The translations under genes were made by a program, and so were the position numbers. A DNA stretch of 64,000 nucleotides. Source: Actinomyces radicidentis. GTDB lineage: Bacteria; Actinomycetota; Actinomycetes; Actinomycetales; Actinomycetaceae. Location of the stretch: positions 2,418,001 through 2,482,000 of the forward strand of contig NZ_CP014228.1 in assembly GCF_001553565.1 (NCBI RefSeq), read 5' to 3'. Positions 10,914-16,953 of this stretch are shown piece after piece (within the stretch, counting starts at the first letter, position 1; each line of letters begins with the position of its first letter). The notes beneath the pieces were generated by a model. The model was not told where the DNA came from. It ran no database searches and saw nothing but the letters and a program-made list of their open reading frames with translations.

Positions 10914-11033
10914 AACGGGCGACCCGAACACCTCCGCGGCTCCGCCCTCGGCTTCCGCAACCTCACCCACTACATCGCCAGATCCCTGCTCGAAGCCGGA
11001 GGGTTCAGACCCGCGCTACACCCTCGTTCGTGA
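10914..11033 (+). pseudogene. ISL3-family transposase, C-terminal 39 codons
   Basis: The segment reads NGRPEHLRGSALGFRNLTHY and ends GGFRPALHPRS before TGA, the conserved C-terminus of ISL3 transposases. It continues the frame cut at 9523. Confidence 0.88.
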
Positions 11034-11039
11034 AGAGCC

Positions 11040-11111
11040 GTGTTACGTCAACCAGCATGCACCCGTTCTATATCGCGACCGCATCACTCTCCACCCAACA
11101 ACACGCCGGAA
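11040..11111. other. Short unassigned spacer between ISL3 and IS30 copy 2
   Basis: These 72 bp end in the GAA target duplication (11109-11111). Joined to the sequence after IS30 copy 2 they restore a frame ending NNTPEYGFV and a stop, related to the tail at 6319-6457. Nothing else is recognisable. Confidence 0.4.
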
Positions 11112-12581
11112 GGCGGATTCAAGGGGTGGTCGCAACACTGCGAGGATCGGAGGGGTTGTCGGTGGTTGAGGATCAGGGTCGGCGTCGGCAGTGGCGGGCG
11201 GATCGTGCGGTTCGTGAGGTGATGCGTTCTCCGGGGCGACCGCCGGTGTCCAGGGTCGCGTGCCGCGACTTCTGGCGCCTGGTGGCTGAGGGGTTCTCCA
11301 GTGAGCAGGCTGCGCAGGCCGTCGGCGTGTCGGCGGCCGTGGGGGCCCGATGGTTCCGCCAAGGTGGCGGGATGGCACCGATGTCGTTGGCCGAGCCCGC
11401 CGGCCGATACCTGAGCCTTGACGAGCGAGAGGAGATCGCCGTCCTTCACGCCAAGGGCGAGGGCGTGCGCAGCATCGCTCGTGCGATCGGCCGCAGCGCG
11501 GCGACGGTGAGTCGTGAGCTGCGTCGGAACGCCGCTACCCGCGGCGGGGCGGTGGTGTACAGGGCCAGCGTGGCCCAGTGGAAGGCCGAGCAGGCCGCCA
11601 GGCGCCCCAAGGAGACGAAGCTGGCCTCCAACCCGCGTCTTGGCCAGTACGTCGTTGACGCCCTGGCCGGCAGGGTGACCGACGCGCACGGGCAGGCCGT
11701 GCGCGGTCCGGAGGTACCGGGCTGGAAGGGGCGGGGCAAGCCGCGCAGGGCCGACCGCCCGTGGTCCAGGGGGTGGAGCCCGGAGCAGATCAGCAACCGC
11801 CTCAAGGTCGACTTTCCCTCTGATGAGTCGATGCGGATCAGTCACGAGGCGATCTACCAGGCGCTGTTCATCCAGGGACGCGGTGCTCTGGAGCGCGAGA
11901 TGACCGCGTGCCTGCGCACGGGGCGGGCGCTTCGCAAGCCTCGCCAGCGACGACACAGCAAGCCCCAGGGGCACGTCACTGCCGACACTCTCATCGCTCA
12001 GCGTCCCCAGGAGGCCTCGGACCGCAGCGTCGTCGGGCACTGGGAGGGAGACCTGATCATCGGCACGGGCCGGTCCGCCGTCGCGACGCTGGTCGAGCGC
12101 GTCAGCCGCATGACGATCCTCGTCCACCTGCCGCGTACCGAGCGCGAGGACCTCCATCAGGAGCCCGGGCGGGTGAGGTCCCGCCCCTCCGGCTACAGCG
12201 CCGACGCGGTCGCCACGGCCCTGGAGGAGGCACTCAGCCACCTCCCACTGGAAATGCGCAAGACCATCACCTGGGACCGGGGAGGGCAGATGGCCGCCCA
12301 CGCCGCCCTCACCGCCGCCACCGGCACCAAGATCTACTTCGCCGACCCCCACAGCCCGTGGCAGCGTCCCAGCAACGAGAACACCAACGGACTCCTGCGC
12401 CAGTACTTCCCCAAGGGCACGGACCTATCACGATGGAGCGCCCAGGACCTCCAGGCCGTCGCCCACACCCTGAATGACAGGCCCCGAAAGATCCTGGGCT
12501 GGAAGAACCCCAACGAGGTCTTCAACCATCACCTACACTCCCTCCAACACACACGTGTTGCGACCACCCCTTGAATCCGCC
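11112..12581 (+). mobile_element. IS30-family element, copy 2 (intact)
   Basis: It is 1470 bp, starting GGCGGATTCAAGGGG and ending with its complement, with a terminal repeat of about 26 bp. It is flanked by the 3-bp direct repeat GAA (11109-11111 and 12582-12584), which differs from the CTG of copy 1, so each copy arrived by its own transposition. It lies inverted to copy 1 at 1809-4722. Confidence 0.93.
11162..12574 (+). CDS. IS30-family transposase (intact copy)
   Basis: This 470-residue DDE transposase moves the IS30 element. It has an N-terminal helix-turn-helix region (FSSEQAAQAVGVS), a second DNA-binding segment (SLDEREEIAVLHAKG, SAATVSRELRRN), and the catalytic core with GHWEGDLIIG (Asp), WDRGGQMAAH (Asp) and NENTNGLLRQYFPKG (Glu). 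I chose the GTG at 11162 because GGAGGGG stands 6 nt before it; the frame is open further upstream and an earlier GTG at 11126 lies within the terminal repeat. The last codons (VATTP, stop) lie inside the right terminal repeat. All catalytic residues are present, so it could act on both copies. Confidence 0.92.
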   Translation: MVEDQGRRRQWRADRAVREVMRSPGRPPVSRVACRDFWRLVAEGFSSEQAAQAVGVSAAVGARWFRQGGGMAPMSLAEPAGRYLSLDEREEIAVLHAKGEGVRSIARAIGRSAATVSRELRRNAATRGGAVVYRASVAQWKAEQAARRPKETKLASNPRLGQYVVDALAGRVTDAHGQAVRGPEVPGWKGRGKPRRADRPWSRGWSPEQISNRLKVDFPSDESMRISHEAIYQALFIQGRGALEREMTACLRTGRALRKPRQRRHSKPQGHVTADTLIAQRPQEASDRSVVGHWEGDLIIGTGRSAVATLVERVSRMTILVHLPRTEREDLHQEPGRVRSRPSGYSADAVATALEEALSHLPLEMRKTITWDRGGQMAAHAALTAATGTKIYFADPHSPWQRPSNENTNGLLRQYFPKGTDLSRWSAQDLQAVAHTLNDRPRKILGWKNPNEVFNHHLHSLQHTRVATTP

Positions 12582-12610
12582 GAATACGGTTTTGTTTAAA
12601 GCCAGCCATA

Positions 12611-12915
12611 CCGACAACAGCGCCAGCTACCGGGCCGGGGCCTTCACCCGCACCGTGGAGGGGCTGGCCAGCCGTCACCAGCGGATCCGGCCCTACACGC
12701 CGCACCACAACGGCAAGGCCGAGCGCAACAACCGGATCATGGCCGAAGAGTGCCTCTACACCCGCGAGCTCACCTCACAGACCCAACGCCGCAAGGCGAT
12801 CGCCGTGGTCAACACCCACGACAACTACTATCGCCCCCACCCCGCCTGCCGAGACCAGTCACCCGCCACCCGAGTCCCCACCACCATCAACAACCTCACG
12901 ATCCCATACATCTAG
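12611..12915 (+). pseudogene. IS481-like transposase, C-terminal remnant
   Basis: About 100 residues of a DDE transposase end: TDNSASYRAGAFTRTVEGLA, RIRPYTPHHNGKAERNNRIM, then NTHDNYYRPHPACRDQSPATR and a stop at 12913-12915. The pattern YTPxxNGKAER is characteristic of IS481 and related IS3-type integrase cores. The N-terminal two-thirds are gone, replaced at the left by the 19-bp segment also seen at 6450-6468. This marks the right edge of the IS island. Confidence 0.8.
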
Positions 12916-13006: not shown

Positions 13007-13894
13007 TCAGCGGCCCAGCAGGTGCAGGATCCGGCGCCGCAGGCGCAGGAACTCGGCGCCGCCCTCGTCGCCGCGCACCTCCGGCGGAACCACGACGTCC
13101 TCGAGGACGTGCGCCGGGCGCTCGGAGAGCACGACCACCCGGTCGGAGAGCCGGAGCGCCTCGTCGACGTCGTGGGTGACGAGGACGGCGGTGAAGCCCT
13201 GCGAGCGCCACAGGCGGGCGATCTCGTCCTGGAGCTGGAGCCGGGTGAGGGCGTCGAGCTTGCCGAAGGGCTCGTCGAGCAGAAACAGTCGGGGGCGGTT
13301 GACGAGGGCCCGGGCGAGGGCGGCGCGCTGCGCCATGCCGCCGGAGAGCGTCGAGGGGTAGGAGTCGGCGAAGTCGCGCAGGCCCACGAGCTCCAGGGCC
13401 GCGGTGATGCGGCGCTCGTCCTTCTCGAGGCGGCCGCGGGCCTGCGGGCCCAGGGCGACGTTCTCGCGGACGGTCCGCCACGGCAGGAGGGTCGAGTCCT
13501 GGAAGGCCATGGCCCGTTCGGGGGCCGGGCCGGTGACGGGCTCTCCGTCGACGAGGACCCGCCCGTGGCGCGGTGCGTCCAGGCCGGCGAGGAGCCGCAG
13601 GATCGTCGACTTGCCGCAGCCGGACTGGCCGACGAGGGAGATGAACTCGCCGGGCTCGATGCTGAGGTCGATGCCGTCGAGCACGTCGAGGGTGTCGGGC
13701 TTGGCGAGCTCGGCCTCGTGGCGGGCGCGCGCGGCGGGGGAGACGAGGCGGATCGCGGACTGCACCCACCCGTGGTCGAGGTCGTGGCTCAGCGGGAACG
13801 AGTGCGAGACGGCCTCGAGGCGGACGGCCGCCCCGCGCGGGGCGGTCGGGCGCGCCGGGGCCGTGCCGGGGACGGAGGAGGTCGGGCCAGTCAT
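13007..13894 (-). CDS. NitT/TauT-family ABC importer, ATP-binding protein
   Basis: This 295-residue ATPase drives import by the permease and binding protein encoded just upstream. It shows Walker A GQSGCGKST, signature LSGGMAQRAALARAL, Walker B LFLLDEPFGKLD and the switch His in VTHDVDEAL; the ending of Walker B (EPFGKLD) is typical of the nitrate/sulfonate/taurine (SsuB/TauB/NrtD) group. The ATG at 13894 comes 5 nt after the permease stop, so translation is probably coupled. Residues 30-75 form an insertion between the first strand and the P-loop, longer than in SsuB. The substrate cannot be read from the ATPase. Confidence 0.93.
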   Translation of the reverse strand: MTGPTSSVPGTAPARPTAPRGAAVRLEAVSHSFPLSHDLDHGWVQSAIRLVSPAARARHEAELAKPDTLDVLDGIDLSIEPGEFISLVGQSGCGKSTILRLLAGLDAPRHGRVLVDGEPVTGPAPERAMAFQDSTLLPWRTVRENVALGPQARGRLEKDERRITAALELVGLRDFADSYPSTLSGGMAQRAALARALVNRPRLFLLDEPFGKLDALTRLQLQDEIARLWRSQGFTAVLVTHDVDEALRLSDRVVVLSERPAHVLEDVVVPPEVRGDEGGAEFLRLRRRILHLLGR

Positions 13895-13899
13895 GGGGG

Positions 13900-14955
13900 T
13901 CACCACCGGACGAGGTCCTGCTGCCAGGCGAGCAGGGAGGAGCGGAGCTTGAACAGGAGCACCATGAGGGCGCGGCAGAACACGATGAGGACGACGAGCC
14001 CGACGTACATCCTCGGGTAGTCGGCCCAGCCCTTGACCCAGTTGATGTACCAGGCCAGGCCGCGGTCGACGCCGACCAGCTCGGCGGTCATGAGGGCGGC
14101 GAGCGATGTGCCCAGGCCCGTGAAGAGACCGGTGAGGACGTCGGGCAGGGCCGCCGGGATCGCGAGGCGGCGGATGAGGAAGGACTGGTCGGCGCCCAGG
14201 GTGCGGGCGACGTCGATGTAGGTGCGGGGCACGGCGCGGACGCCGGCGCGCGTCATCGTCGCCATCGGGAACCAGGCGCCGAAGGCGACGATGAAGGCGG
14301 CTCCCAGGTAGGTGGTCGGCAGGACGAGGACGGCGAGCGGCAGGAGGGCCGCAGCCGGCACCGGGCCGATGGTCTGGAGGAGCGGGTGGAGCCAGTAGTC
14401 GGCGCGGCGCGACCAGCCCATGAGGAGACCGGTGACGAAGCCGGCGACGGAGCCGATCGCGTAGCCGGTGAGGAAGAGCAGGGCGGAGGACCCCAGGCAC
14501 GACAGGAGGAGGCGCCAGTCCTCGCCGAGCCCCGCGAGCAGTACCTCCGGGGCCGCGAAGTACGGCGGGTGGAGCAGGTTCGACTTCACGGTCGTCAGCT
14601 GCCACGCGATGAACCAGGCTCCTCCGAAGAGGATCCAGGGCAGCCGGTGCGCGAGTGCGGCCGCGGCGTCGGACGCCGGGCGCGCGACGGCGGCGCCGAC
14701 CCAGGCGGCCAGCCCGACGGTGAGGACGCCGACGACGGAGAGCAGAGGCCCGTGCGGCGCGGTGAGGGCGCCGTCGGCGTCGGGCAGGAGGGCGACGACG
14801 GCGAGGTAGACGACCCAGACGGCGAGTGCGGCACCGCCCCGGGTGAGGATCATCGGGCGCGCGCTCGCGCTCGCGGCAGGGGCCGCGGACGGGCGTGCGG
14901 GAGGCGCGGGCTCGTTGCCCGTCGTCGGTGCTGGAGAGGCGGCTTGCTGTGTCAC
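13900..14955 (-). CDS. NitT/TauT-family ABC importer, permease
   Basis: This inner-membrane subunit forms the translocation path. Hydrophobic segments include AALAVWVVYLAVVALL, LSVVGVLTVGLAAWVG and four or five more. The EAA-type coupling loop for the ATPase is DVARTLGADQSFLIRRLAIP, and the segment GTSLAALMTAELVGVDRGL is typical of SsuC/TauC permeases. The frame is open to a GTG at 15036, but I prefer the GTG at 14955, preceded by GGGAGAACG, giving 351 residues; that is still longer than the usual 260 because of two additional N-terminal membrane segments. It lies between the binding-protein and ATPase genes. Confidence 0.9.
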   Translation of the reverse strand: MTQQAASPAPTTGNEPAPPARPSAAPAASASARPMILTRGGAALAVWVVYLAVVALLPDADGALTAPHGPLLSVVGVLTVGLAAWVGAAVARPASDAAAALAHRLPWILFGGAWFIAWQLTTVKSNLLHPPYFAAPEVLLAGLGEDWRLLLSCLGSSALLFLTGYAIGSVAGFVTGLLMGWSRRADYWLHPLLQTIGPVPAAALLPLAVLVLPTTYLGAAFIVAFGAWFPMATMTRAGVRAVPRTYIDVARTLGADQSFLIRRLAIPAALPDVLTGLFTGLGTSLAALMTAELVGVDRGLAWYINWVKGWADYPRMYVGLVVLIVFCRALMVLLFKLRSSLLAWQQDLVRW

Positions 14956-15057
14956 GGTGCTTCGTTCTCCCGGTGGGTCGGGGGGCCAGGTGGTGCGCGT
15001 GGGTGCGCTGCGCGCGGCGGGCTCCGTGCCGGTCACGGGGCCCGCCGCCCGGGGCGG

Positions 15058-16212
15058 TCAGCGCGTGATGCCGAGGTCGACGTAGACCTTGTCCGCCAGG
15101 GTCTTCGCGTCGATCGACGAGCTGATGAAGCCCGTCTTCTTGAACTCGCCGATCCCCGGCTCGATCGCCTTGCGGAAGTCGACGGCGGACGCGGTCCAGC
15201 CGTAGGTCTTGAGCACCTTGAGAACCGTCGCCTCGTCCGTGGCGACGTAGTCGTTGTCCACCTCGGTCTTCGCCATCTCGGCGAGATGGTCGTCGCCGGC
15301 GGCCAGCCAGTCGGAGCCCTTGAACCACGCCTCGGTGAGGGCCTTCGCCTCGGCCCGGTGCTCCTTGACGAAGGTGCCGTTGAGAGCGACGGAGCAGCAG
15401 AACGCGGCGTCGTCGTTGTTGGCGAGCTCGTGGGCGGTCCCCTTGAGGACGGGGAGGAGCGCGCCCGGGTCGGAGCCGGTGATGGCGTCGACCGTTCCGT
15501 CGGCGAGCGCGGTGCCGAGGGAGTCCTGGTCGACCGTCGTCCAGGTGATCTGGCCGGCCTTCGGGTCCGGGTCGATCCCGGCGTCCGTGAGCCCGATGGA
15601 GAAGTAGGCGAAGGCGGAGGACGCGAGCGAGGGCACGCCGATCTTCTTGCCCTTGAGGTCGGCCAGGGAGGTGATGGGCGAGTCGTTCCCGACGACCATC
15701 CGGAGGCACCCGGAGTGGAACCCTCCGGCGAGCCTGGCGTCCAGGCCGTTGTAGATCGGCTCGAGCCAGGAGAAGAAGATGCCGGGCGCACCGGTGTACT
15801 TGCCGGAGCCGACGGCATCCTTGGCGTCCTCGGTCAGCTGGGTGCGGACCAGCTTGACGTTGAGGTTGGCGTCGTCGAAGTAGCCCTGGTGGTAGGCGGC
15901 GTAGAGGGGCGCGGCGCAGATGTCGCCGCCGATGACGAGCTTGATCTCCTCGGCGGCGCCGGTGACGCCGTCGGCGCCCTTGTTGGAGCGGGTCGCCCAC
16001 CAGCCGCCGCCGACGGCGAGGGCGGCGACGGCCACGCCTCCGCCGATGAGGAGGTTGCGGCGGCTCGTGCCCTTGCGGGCGGGGGCCGTGTCCTCGGCGT
16101 CGTCCGCCGCGAGGATGTCGGCGGCGTTCTCGCTCGTCACCTCGTCGTTCGCGGGGACGGCCTGCTGCTCGGGCTGCTGGGAGGGGGTGGTGTGGTCGTT
16201 GGGGGTGGGCAT
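15058..16212 (-). CDS. NitT/TauT-family ABC importer, substrate-binding protein (Tat-type signal)
   Basis: This 384-residue protein should capture the substrate outside the membrane. It begins MPTPNDHTTP after GAGGAG, with an unusually long polar N-terminus of 48 residues, a twin-arginine motif TSRRNLLIGGG (Arg 51-52) and a hydrophobic stretch AVAALAVGGGWW. No lipobox Cys is visible, so it may stay membrane-anchored by its signal. The mature part has the NMT1/SsuA layout: GGDICAAPLYAAYHQGYFDD, then LADLKGKKIGVPSLASS. The family takes up sulfonates, taurine, nitrate, thiamine precursors and similar ligands; the Cys-rich small ORF upstream favours a sulfur compound, which is inference. Confidence 0.88.
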   Translation of the reverse strand: MPTPNDHTTPSQQPEQQAVPANDEVTSENAADILAADDAEDTAPARKGTSRRNLLIGGGVAVAALAVGGGWWATRSNKGADGVTGAAEEIKLVIGGDICAAPLYAAYHQGYFDDANLNVKLVRTQLTEDAKDAVGSGKYTGAPGIFFSWLEPIYNGLDARLAGGFHSGCLRMVVGNDSPITSLADLKGKKIGVPSLASSAFAYFSIGLTDAGIDPDPKAGQITWTTVDQDSLGTALADGTVDAITGSDPGALLPVLKGTAHELANNDDAAFCCSVALNGTFVKEHRAEAKALTEAWFKGSDWLAAGDDHLAEMAKTEVDNDYVATDEATVLKVLKTYGWTASAVDFRKAIEPGIGEFKKTGFISSSIDAKTLADKVYVDLGITR

Positions 16213-16401
16213 GAGGGCTCCTCGCGGGGTGCGTGGGTGGGAGGTGGGGGGCGTCCCAGGGGGATCGGGGGAGGGGGCTGCCAGGCTCGGGGCGGTGGAC
16301 GGAGCGAGGAGGTCCCGGGGCGCGCGCCGGCGCGGGCCGGCTCTCACCGGCTGCGGGGACCTCAGAGGCTGTCGGGCGGCGTCATCGCCTGCGGGACGGG
16401 G

Positions 16402-16500
16402 TCACCGGGCCTGACAGCGGCAACACGCCATGACGTCGCACAAGGCCACGAGCACGAGGGTGCCGCGGGCGGTGCTGGACGTGGATGCGCCGGTTGCCAT
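16402..16500 (-). CDS. Cys-rich leader peptide (candidate cysteine attenuator)
   Basis: This 32-codon ORF reads from an ATG at 16500 to a TGA at 16402 and ends MACCRCQAR, with four Cys codons in the last third (LCDVM, then CC and RC). It lies 190 nt upstream of the binding-protein gene in the same direction. TACCGT (a TANNNT hexamer) ends 7 nt before the ATG, so the start codon would be close to the first transcribed base, that is, leaderless. Leaderless polycysteine ORFs that sense cysteinyl-tRNA and attenuate downstream sulfur genes are known in mycobacteria; this resembles them in size, position and Cys clustering. Translation is unproven. Confidence 0.55.
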   Translation of the reverse strand: MATGASTSSTARGTLVLVALCDVMACCRCQAR

Positions 16501-16953
16501 GGCACGGACGGTATCCCCGGCGGGCGCTCGCGGGACCGGGCCGTTCGTCACGATGACGGGACGGGCCGCGCTCCGGCGCCCGGACTCGCGCCGCGCACTT
16601 GCGGGTTTTCCGCAGAATGACGCCGTGACAAAACAGAGACCTTCGTGATCGTGAGGGTGGTCACGATGGCGGAAGGCGTCCACGATGCGACCCTTTCGGC
16701 GGTCTCACGCCGATGCGTCGTACTCAGAGGTGGTTCGCATCGCGCTGACAGGTTCTTTGCCAGGACCGCGAGAAGCGCAAGATCCCCGCAAGCCCCGGCC
16801 CACCGCCCGATCGGGACGATACGATCCATTTGCGACGGAATACTGCGCGTCCGCGGCCAAGGCCGCGCGGCCCGTCGCAGTGAGCCGCACTGACGTCCCC
16901 CGAGCGCCGCCCGCGCGGATCAGATCCCCACGACCGGCCGCCTCAGGACTCCC
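16501..16953. other. Intergenic region, divergent promoters
   Basis: No reading frame here has coding character. On the minus side TACCGT (about 16508-16513) is the likely -10 for the NitT/TauT operon. On the plus side candidate hexamers such as TACGAT near 16827 precede the surface-protein gene. Several short inverted repeats occur (for example GCGGGTTTTCCGC near 16603), with no clear role. Confidence 0.3.

Follow-up and report, generated by a model that had tools for sequence, protein, structure and literature searches.

The window, a 64,000-nucleotide stretch of Actinomyces radicidentis DNA, carries on its minus strand an operon for an ABC importer, comprising the genes for a binding protein of the NMT1/SsuA type (15058 to 16212; 384 amino acids, with a likely twin-arginine signal), a BPD_transp_1 permease (13900 to 15036; 378 amino acids), and an ABC_tran ATP-binding subunit (13007 to 13918; about 303 amino acids, the start not being fixed). 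The presence in one operon of an NMT1 domain above its gathering score, a BPD permease, and an ABC_tran ATPase placed the system among the NMT1/SsuA-like ABC importers in the broad sense. The binding-protein gene has a strong Shine-Dalgarno (SD) sequence, GAGGAG, at 16218 to 16223 on the minus strand. Directly downstream of the ATPase gene, an IS30-like transposase and an integrase-core-like fragment (11030 to 12915) were recognized by eye from the translation. In relatives, a DEAD-box helicase-like gene adjoins the operon (L034 8251, L037 8743, L040 9599, and L049 2992); it has a common in-frame upstream stretch (VWWxRCGKSGG...LPHTPQ) resembling a palindromic RNA element before the start.

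Upstream of the binding-protein gene and on the same strand lies a short ORF (sORF) of 32 codons, MATGASTSSTARGTLVLVALCDVMACCRCQAR, which runs from an ATG at 16500-16498 to a stop codon ending at 16402 and leaves a gap of 189 nt before the binding-protein ATG (16212). Its C-terminal sequence is MACCRCQAR, and its four Cys codons (16438-16440, 16423-16425, 16420-16422, and 16414-16416) all lie near the C terminus. A -10 element, TACCGT, at 16508 to 16513 ends 7 nt before the ATG, and no SD sequence was seen in the window at a working distance from this start. A -35-like TTGCA, seen in many relatives, is absent from the window. An in-frame extension of the sORF back to a GTG at 16683 (93 amino acids) is also present, but this open frame was not conserved among relatives (about 35 to >500 amino acids), whereas the ATG spaced from the -10 element was.

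The binding-protein gene was found in 28 of 49 Actinomyces genomes and in 20 of 200 sampled genomes of the family, the carriers being Actinomyces only. All 28 operon-bearing genomes had a leader ORF with a C-terminal Cys cluster 187 to 364 nt upstream of the gene; its length ranged from 31 to 39 codons, most genomes having 32, the A. oris group 31, and the timonensis group 39. These genomes are related, and the conservation counts are therefore not independent events. In 25 aligned leaders the -10 hexamer stood exactly 7 nt before the ATG, with T at -13 in 25 of 25, A at -12 in 24 of 25, and T at -8 in 24 of 25, and the three longer leaders had a -10 element at the same 7-nt spacing (TAGGCT in L019 and L046). 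Given this constant distance, the predicted 5' end of the transcript is the first base, A, of the sORF start codon. The original prediction had described the Cys-tailed 32-codon ORF, the hexamer 7 nt before its ATG, and the missing SD sequence, with coordinates, spacing, and sequence that proved accurate; it had also pointed to loss of the Cys codons or of the start in relatives as evidence against it, and both were conserved in 28 of 28.

A 29th genome with the leader, G013, has lost the binding-protein gene, and its permease and ATPase frames are disrupted; in this decaying copy of the operon (L049 1411-1800), the leader and both RNA helices described below are nevertheless intact. G013 was one of two weak profile matches in other Actinomyces; the second, in G016, was discarded because it lacked an open frame with a start codon. 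When 396 genomes of the order were searched with a profile, nothing convincing as a leader emerged outside Actinomyces. A genome from another family of the order has, between proC-like and ileS-like genes (L071 1462-1563), the short ORF MTLSTVSNHDQRSTLSVMGRVCLSCCCQPVTFR and, after it, a hairpin of GACGCCCC and GGGGGCGTC; this is possibly a Cys leader belonging to an unrelated operon.

The rarity of such ORFs was gauged by scanning both strands of 320 kb, made up of the window and relatives, for TANNNT followed at 6 to 8 nt by RTG and a short ORF with at least three Cys in its last 14 residues. Besides 17 orthologous leaders, only two other matches were obtained, both at a single locus shared by a pair of close relatives (L036 9307 and L048 8892, both on the plus strand). 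There, downstream of the operon, lies a leaderless-looking Cys-tailed short ORF, MGPPGTAPTVFCC(T/P)PG(P/V)CR.

When single leaders were folded with RNAfold, the Cys end of the sORF formed pairs with a downstream block, and a search for the longest complementary run returned the same partner in most leaders. In the window, all on the minus strand, the 5' strand of this helix (S1) is arm a, GCUGUCAGGC (16409 to 16418), which covers the last Cys codon, the Gln codon, and most of the Ala codon; it pairs with arm a', GCCUGGCAGC (16277 to 16286). Across most species, a' reads GCCUGRCAGC and lies 114 to 244 nt past the sORF stop and 46 to 112 nt before the binding-protein ATG. A second helix (S2) is formed by arm b, CGUCCC (16393 to 16398), which begins 3 nt past the stop codon (4 nt for its GUCC core), and arm b', GGGACG (16252 to 16257). 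In the compared leaders, GUCC(G/C) follows the sORF stop, its core at 4 to 6 nt, and (C/G)GGAC occurs 8 to 22 nt past a'.

S1 was evaluated as a 12-bp helix in 17 distinct leaders, including three from the groups with a nearer a'. Paired cells amounted to 92%, compared with 85% after shuffling, and double changes to 14 cells, compared with 5.1; the covariation score was reached in 0 of 500 shuffles, and sliding the partner abolished the signal. At the last pair of the helix, G-C, U-A, A-U, and C-G were all seen. For S2, 88% of cells were paired, compared with 80% after shuffling, double changes occurred at four of the six pairs, and the covariation score was again reached in 0 of 500 shuffles; an example is GUCCC:GGGAC in the window and in its nearest relative, A. 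haliotis, versus GUCCG:CGGAC elsewhere. In the alignments A2 and A4, the arms were joined by a fixed linker and placed by complementarity, which favors pairing, so that the weight there rests on the double changes and not on the percentage paired. The summed complementarity of b and b' was 215, compared with 162 +/- 8 for shuffled b' regions; it was not clearly higher than that of species-swapped pairs (203 +/- 8), because the b and b' motifs are nearly invariant. S2 is less sure than S1, since arm b is almost constant and since the anchors in two leaders, L004 and L015, were positioned by eye.

The order of the arms, a-b-a'-b', is that of a predicted covarying pseudoknot in the 14 leaders compared. 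In the A. oris/naeslundii and timonensis groups, the partner of arm a lies only 40 to 62 nt past the stop, and no clear b:b' pairing was found there. RNAalifold applied to whole leaders recovered S1 in the main group and, with leader lengths so variable, did not resolve the rest. No Rfam match was found for the leader RNA.

Codon usage within the sORF differed sharply from that of the gene it precedes. The sORF Cys codons comprised 92 UGU and 37 UGC, compared with 2 and 107, respectively, in the binding-protein genes (Fisher P = 2e-32), and a strong bias persisted for Cys codons outside arm a (50 UGU and 21 UGC; P = 5e-25); these P values are descriptive, as the species are related and not independent. 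Only 21% of the other pyrimidine-ending codons of the sORF ended in T. Rare UGU codons are the expected choice for a sensor of Cys-tRNA. The peptide itself varied: among the 28 genomes the number of Cys residues ranged from two to six, and Met1 and one Cys column were the only invariant positions. Differences between species in codons 1 to 18 were spread evenly over the three codon positions, and this absence of third-position bias implies that the N-terminal peptide sequence is unselected.

These patterns bear on what the sORF is for. One explanation, judged improbable, is that the conserved bases serve the pseudoknot, which might be a protein or metabolite binding site, and that the ORF is an untranslated by-product. 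It would account for the position of the last Cys, Gln, and Ala codons, which lie in arm a and covary with a', and for N-terminal codons without amino-acid selection, but not for the Cys codons outside arm a (-12, -11, -9, -7, and -6), which are frequent and UGU rich, nor for a frame held at 31 to 32 codons across the main groups with a fixed ATG and 7-nt spacing to the -10 element. It also conflicts with the sister leader described below, which keeps an MCC(Q/R)A ending despite a different RNA layout. A functional Cys-rich small protein, such as a metal-binding peptide or a membrane peptide partnering the transporter, appears less probable still: the four Cys near the C terminus and the constant company of the same operon would suit it, whereas the variable Cys number, the near lack of invariant columns, the absence of a family match, and the missing codon-position signature of protein selection argue against it. 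A chance ORF without function, of the kind that GC-rich genomes produce mechanically in large numbers, is already refuted by the 28/28 conservation, the rarity of such ORFs in 320 kb, the codon bias, and the covariation.

A connection of the leader with sulfur came from elsewhere in the same genome, which has two genes of the PAPS-reductase type (cysH/cysD). A scan around them identified a second leaderless ORF, MTAARSTTTEGTRPSDVLRAHGWVMCCQA (G000:C1:1992188; locus L082 12189, minus strand), which ends in UGUUGUCAGGCCUGA and lies 174 nt upstream of the gene for sulfite reductase (sir). This sir leader was present in 28 of 28 Actinomyces genomes with a sulfite reductase of the same type, with the ending MCC(Q/R)A(x), a -10-like TANNNT 6 to 8 nt before the start, and Cys codons comprising 53 UGU and 7 UGC. 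Directly past the stop, its RNA has GCGCCUGA; a UCCGGCGC...GCGUCCGGA hairpin is also present, and CCGGACGCUC precedes the SD sequence in most species. The transporter leader has these same words, as a', b, and b', in a different arrangement. Mutually exclusive pairs (1:2, 2:3, 3:4, and 4:5) can be drawn from the sequence, which is too invariant for a covariation test, and the pairing to the SD sequence was marginal (13/200). No leaderless Cys ORF was found around the cysK-like, metB-like, luciferase-like, and SsuA-paralog genes of this genome.

Because the sister leader precedes sir-cysH-cysD, the leader device is tied to cysteine and sulfur, and the transporter operon would thus belong to a cysteine regulon that also holds sir-cysH-cysD. 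The transporter and sir were both present in 21 genomes, each was present alone in 7, and 14 had neither (P = 0.008, ignoring relatedness). A more tentative proposal, for which the odds seem somewhat below even, is that Actinomyces arranges a single small vocabulary of RNA words, made up of the Cys-codon end UGUCAGGC and its complement GCGCCUGAC together with GUCCGG and CCGGAC, in two orders: before sir, as neighboring, mutually exclusive hairpins (1:2, 3:4, and 4:5), and before the transporter, reordered as a long-range pseudoknot that spans the stop codon of the sORF. If this is true, the cysteine attenuator would be modular, with wiring that differs between operons of one regulon.

With regard to the original prediction, its reading of the ORF as a leaderless cysteine-responsive attenuator was strongly supported by the conservation in 28 of 28 genomes, the fixed spacing, the rare codons, the covarying RNA, and the sister leader before sir, whereas the sulfonate that it had suggested as the transported substrate was not borne out. 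The binding protein scored below all curated sulfonate and taurine cutoffs (72.9 bits versus 163.5 for TIGR01728 and 18 versus 304 for the taurine model), and no sequence relative of it was found in the PDB. Its AlphaFold model (pLDDT of 60, which is weak) fitted the Thi5/NMT1, nitrate, and SsuA folds alike and so indicates a fold class only. In addition, seven genomes, two of them 82 to 89% complete, keep the transporter and leader without any NIR_SIR protein; in these seven, no known route would carry sulfonate-derived sulfite on to cysteine, which makes a sulfonate doubtful. The more likely substrate would be a sulfur compound that is reduced or organic, such as cystine, glutathione, or a methionine-like compound. 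Four Cys residues of the binding protein (99, 169, 272, and 273) are invariant in 15 aligned proteins, within GGDICAAPLY, GC(L), and FCCSV, and possibly form disulfides or ligand contacts.

The ORF is conserved in its start, its spacing, and its Cys cluster, its Cys codons are biased, the helices covary, and a sister leader exists; the sORF is most probably (roughly 85%) a cis-acting, cysteine-sensing attenuator of the transporter operon. The following model is proposed for the steps from the start of transcription through translation and stalling to the sign of the response and its output. RNA polymerase would initiate with the A of the start codon, and, to judge from the spacing, the leaderless AUG would be bound directly by a ribosome. 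A shortage of charged tRNA-Cys would make this ribosome stall on the UGU-rich Cys cluster, cover arm a, and block a:a' pairing; when cysteine is plentiful, it would finish and depart, so that a:a' (10 to 14 bp) and b:b' (4 to 6 bp) could form the long-range pseudoknot and expression of the transporter would fall. This sign of the response, with cysteine acting downward, would follow the mycobacterial precedent in the cited portions of two reports (PMC9031893 and PMC13236596).

The output step may be either a block of binding-protein translation or a Rho-dependent stop in the C-rich stretch before the gene. No intrinsic terminator was found in 16100-16700. The stretch after a' is 51% C and 19% G, a C-rich, G-poor composition that suits Rho, short of proof. 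Sequestration of the SD sequence was considered and rejected: when 28 leaders were folded by partition function with a ribosome positioned over the Cys codons or over the stop, SD pairing did not shift consistently (0.73 versus 0.72 to 0.73), and the anti-SD complementarity between a' and the SD sequence in the transporter leader was no better than in shuffles (83/200).

Polycysteine leaderless sORF attenuators were reportedly demonstrated by experiment in mycobacteria by Canestrari et al. in 2020. The transporter leader has what characterizes such attenuators, a short ORF with Cys codons clustered near the stop, upstream of a sulfur-related operon, the sulfur link being made through the sir-cysH-cysD sister leader. 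In the cited portions of three reports, the mycobacterial attenuators are polycysteine leaderless sORFs before sulfur-related operons (PMC9031893, PMC13236596, and PMC9094748). As far as those portions extend, the likeness lies in a short ORF with Cys codons (predicted to be leaderless in Actinomyces), a sulfur-related operon, and a proposed dependence of ribosome speed on cysteine; the differences lie in the genus, Actinomyces, in the SsuA/NMT1-type importer, in a Cys-codon end that pairs 114 to 244 nt downstream, and in the pseudoknot predicted in most species.

An earlier prediction by Seliverstov et al. in 2005 assigned Cys leader peptides to the cys operons of Mycobacterium and P. acnes and to cbs of B. 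longum (PMC1262725). In the excerpts cited here, it found no terminator, left the mode of regulation open, saw no hairpin conserved among the cys leaders of mycobacteria, and remarked that other parts of an attenuator were missing from the actinobacterial Cys leaders; the A. naeslundii genome was included, and these excerpts name no Actinomyces case (PMC1262725). On this basis, the Actinomyces leaders resemble those predictions in their shortness, in carrying runs of Cys codons close to the stop, and in having no intrinsic terminator, but there are two of them, both with conserved RNA pairing modules. According to the same excerpts, the LEU element of actinobacterial leuA pairs leucine codons with the leuA SD box and has a conserved pseudoknot (PMC1262725). 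The transporter leader shares with it the pairing of leader-peptide amino-acid codons with a downstream element and the conserved pseudoknot, but differs, so far as that description reaches, in that a' lies 46 to 112 nt ahead of the binding-protein ATG in most species and SD pairing was unsupported.

The transporter leader is a variant of the known mycobacterial polycysteine attenuators, and what is new is the pairing of its Cys codons with downstream RNA and the covarying pseudoknot. Actinomyces becomes a second actinobacterial genus with two Cys leaders in one genome, one before an importer and one before sulfate assimilation; in the importer leader, the Cys codons have covarying RNA partners. 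The Actinomyces cysteine regulon would gain an importer of unassigned substrate, with an RNA model that can be tested.
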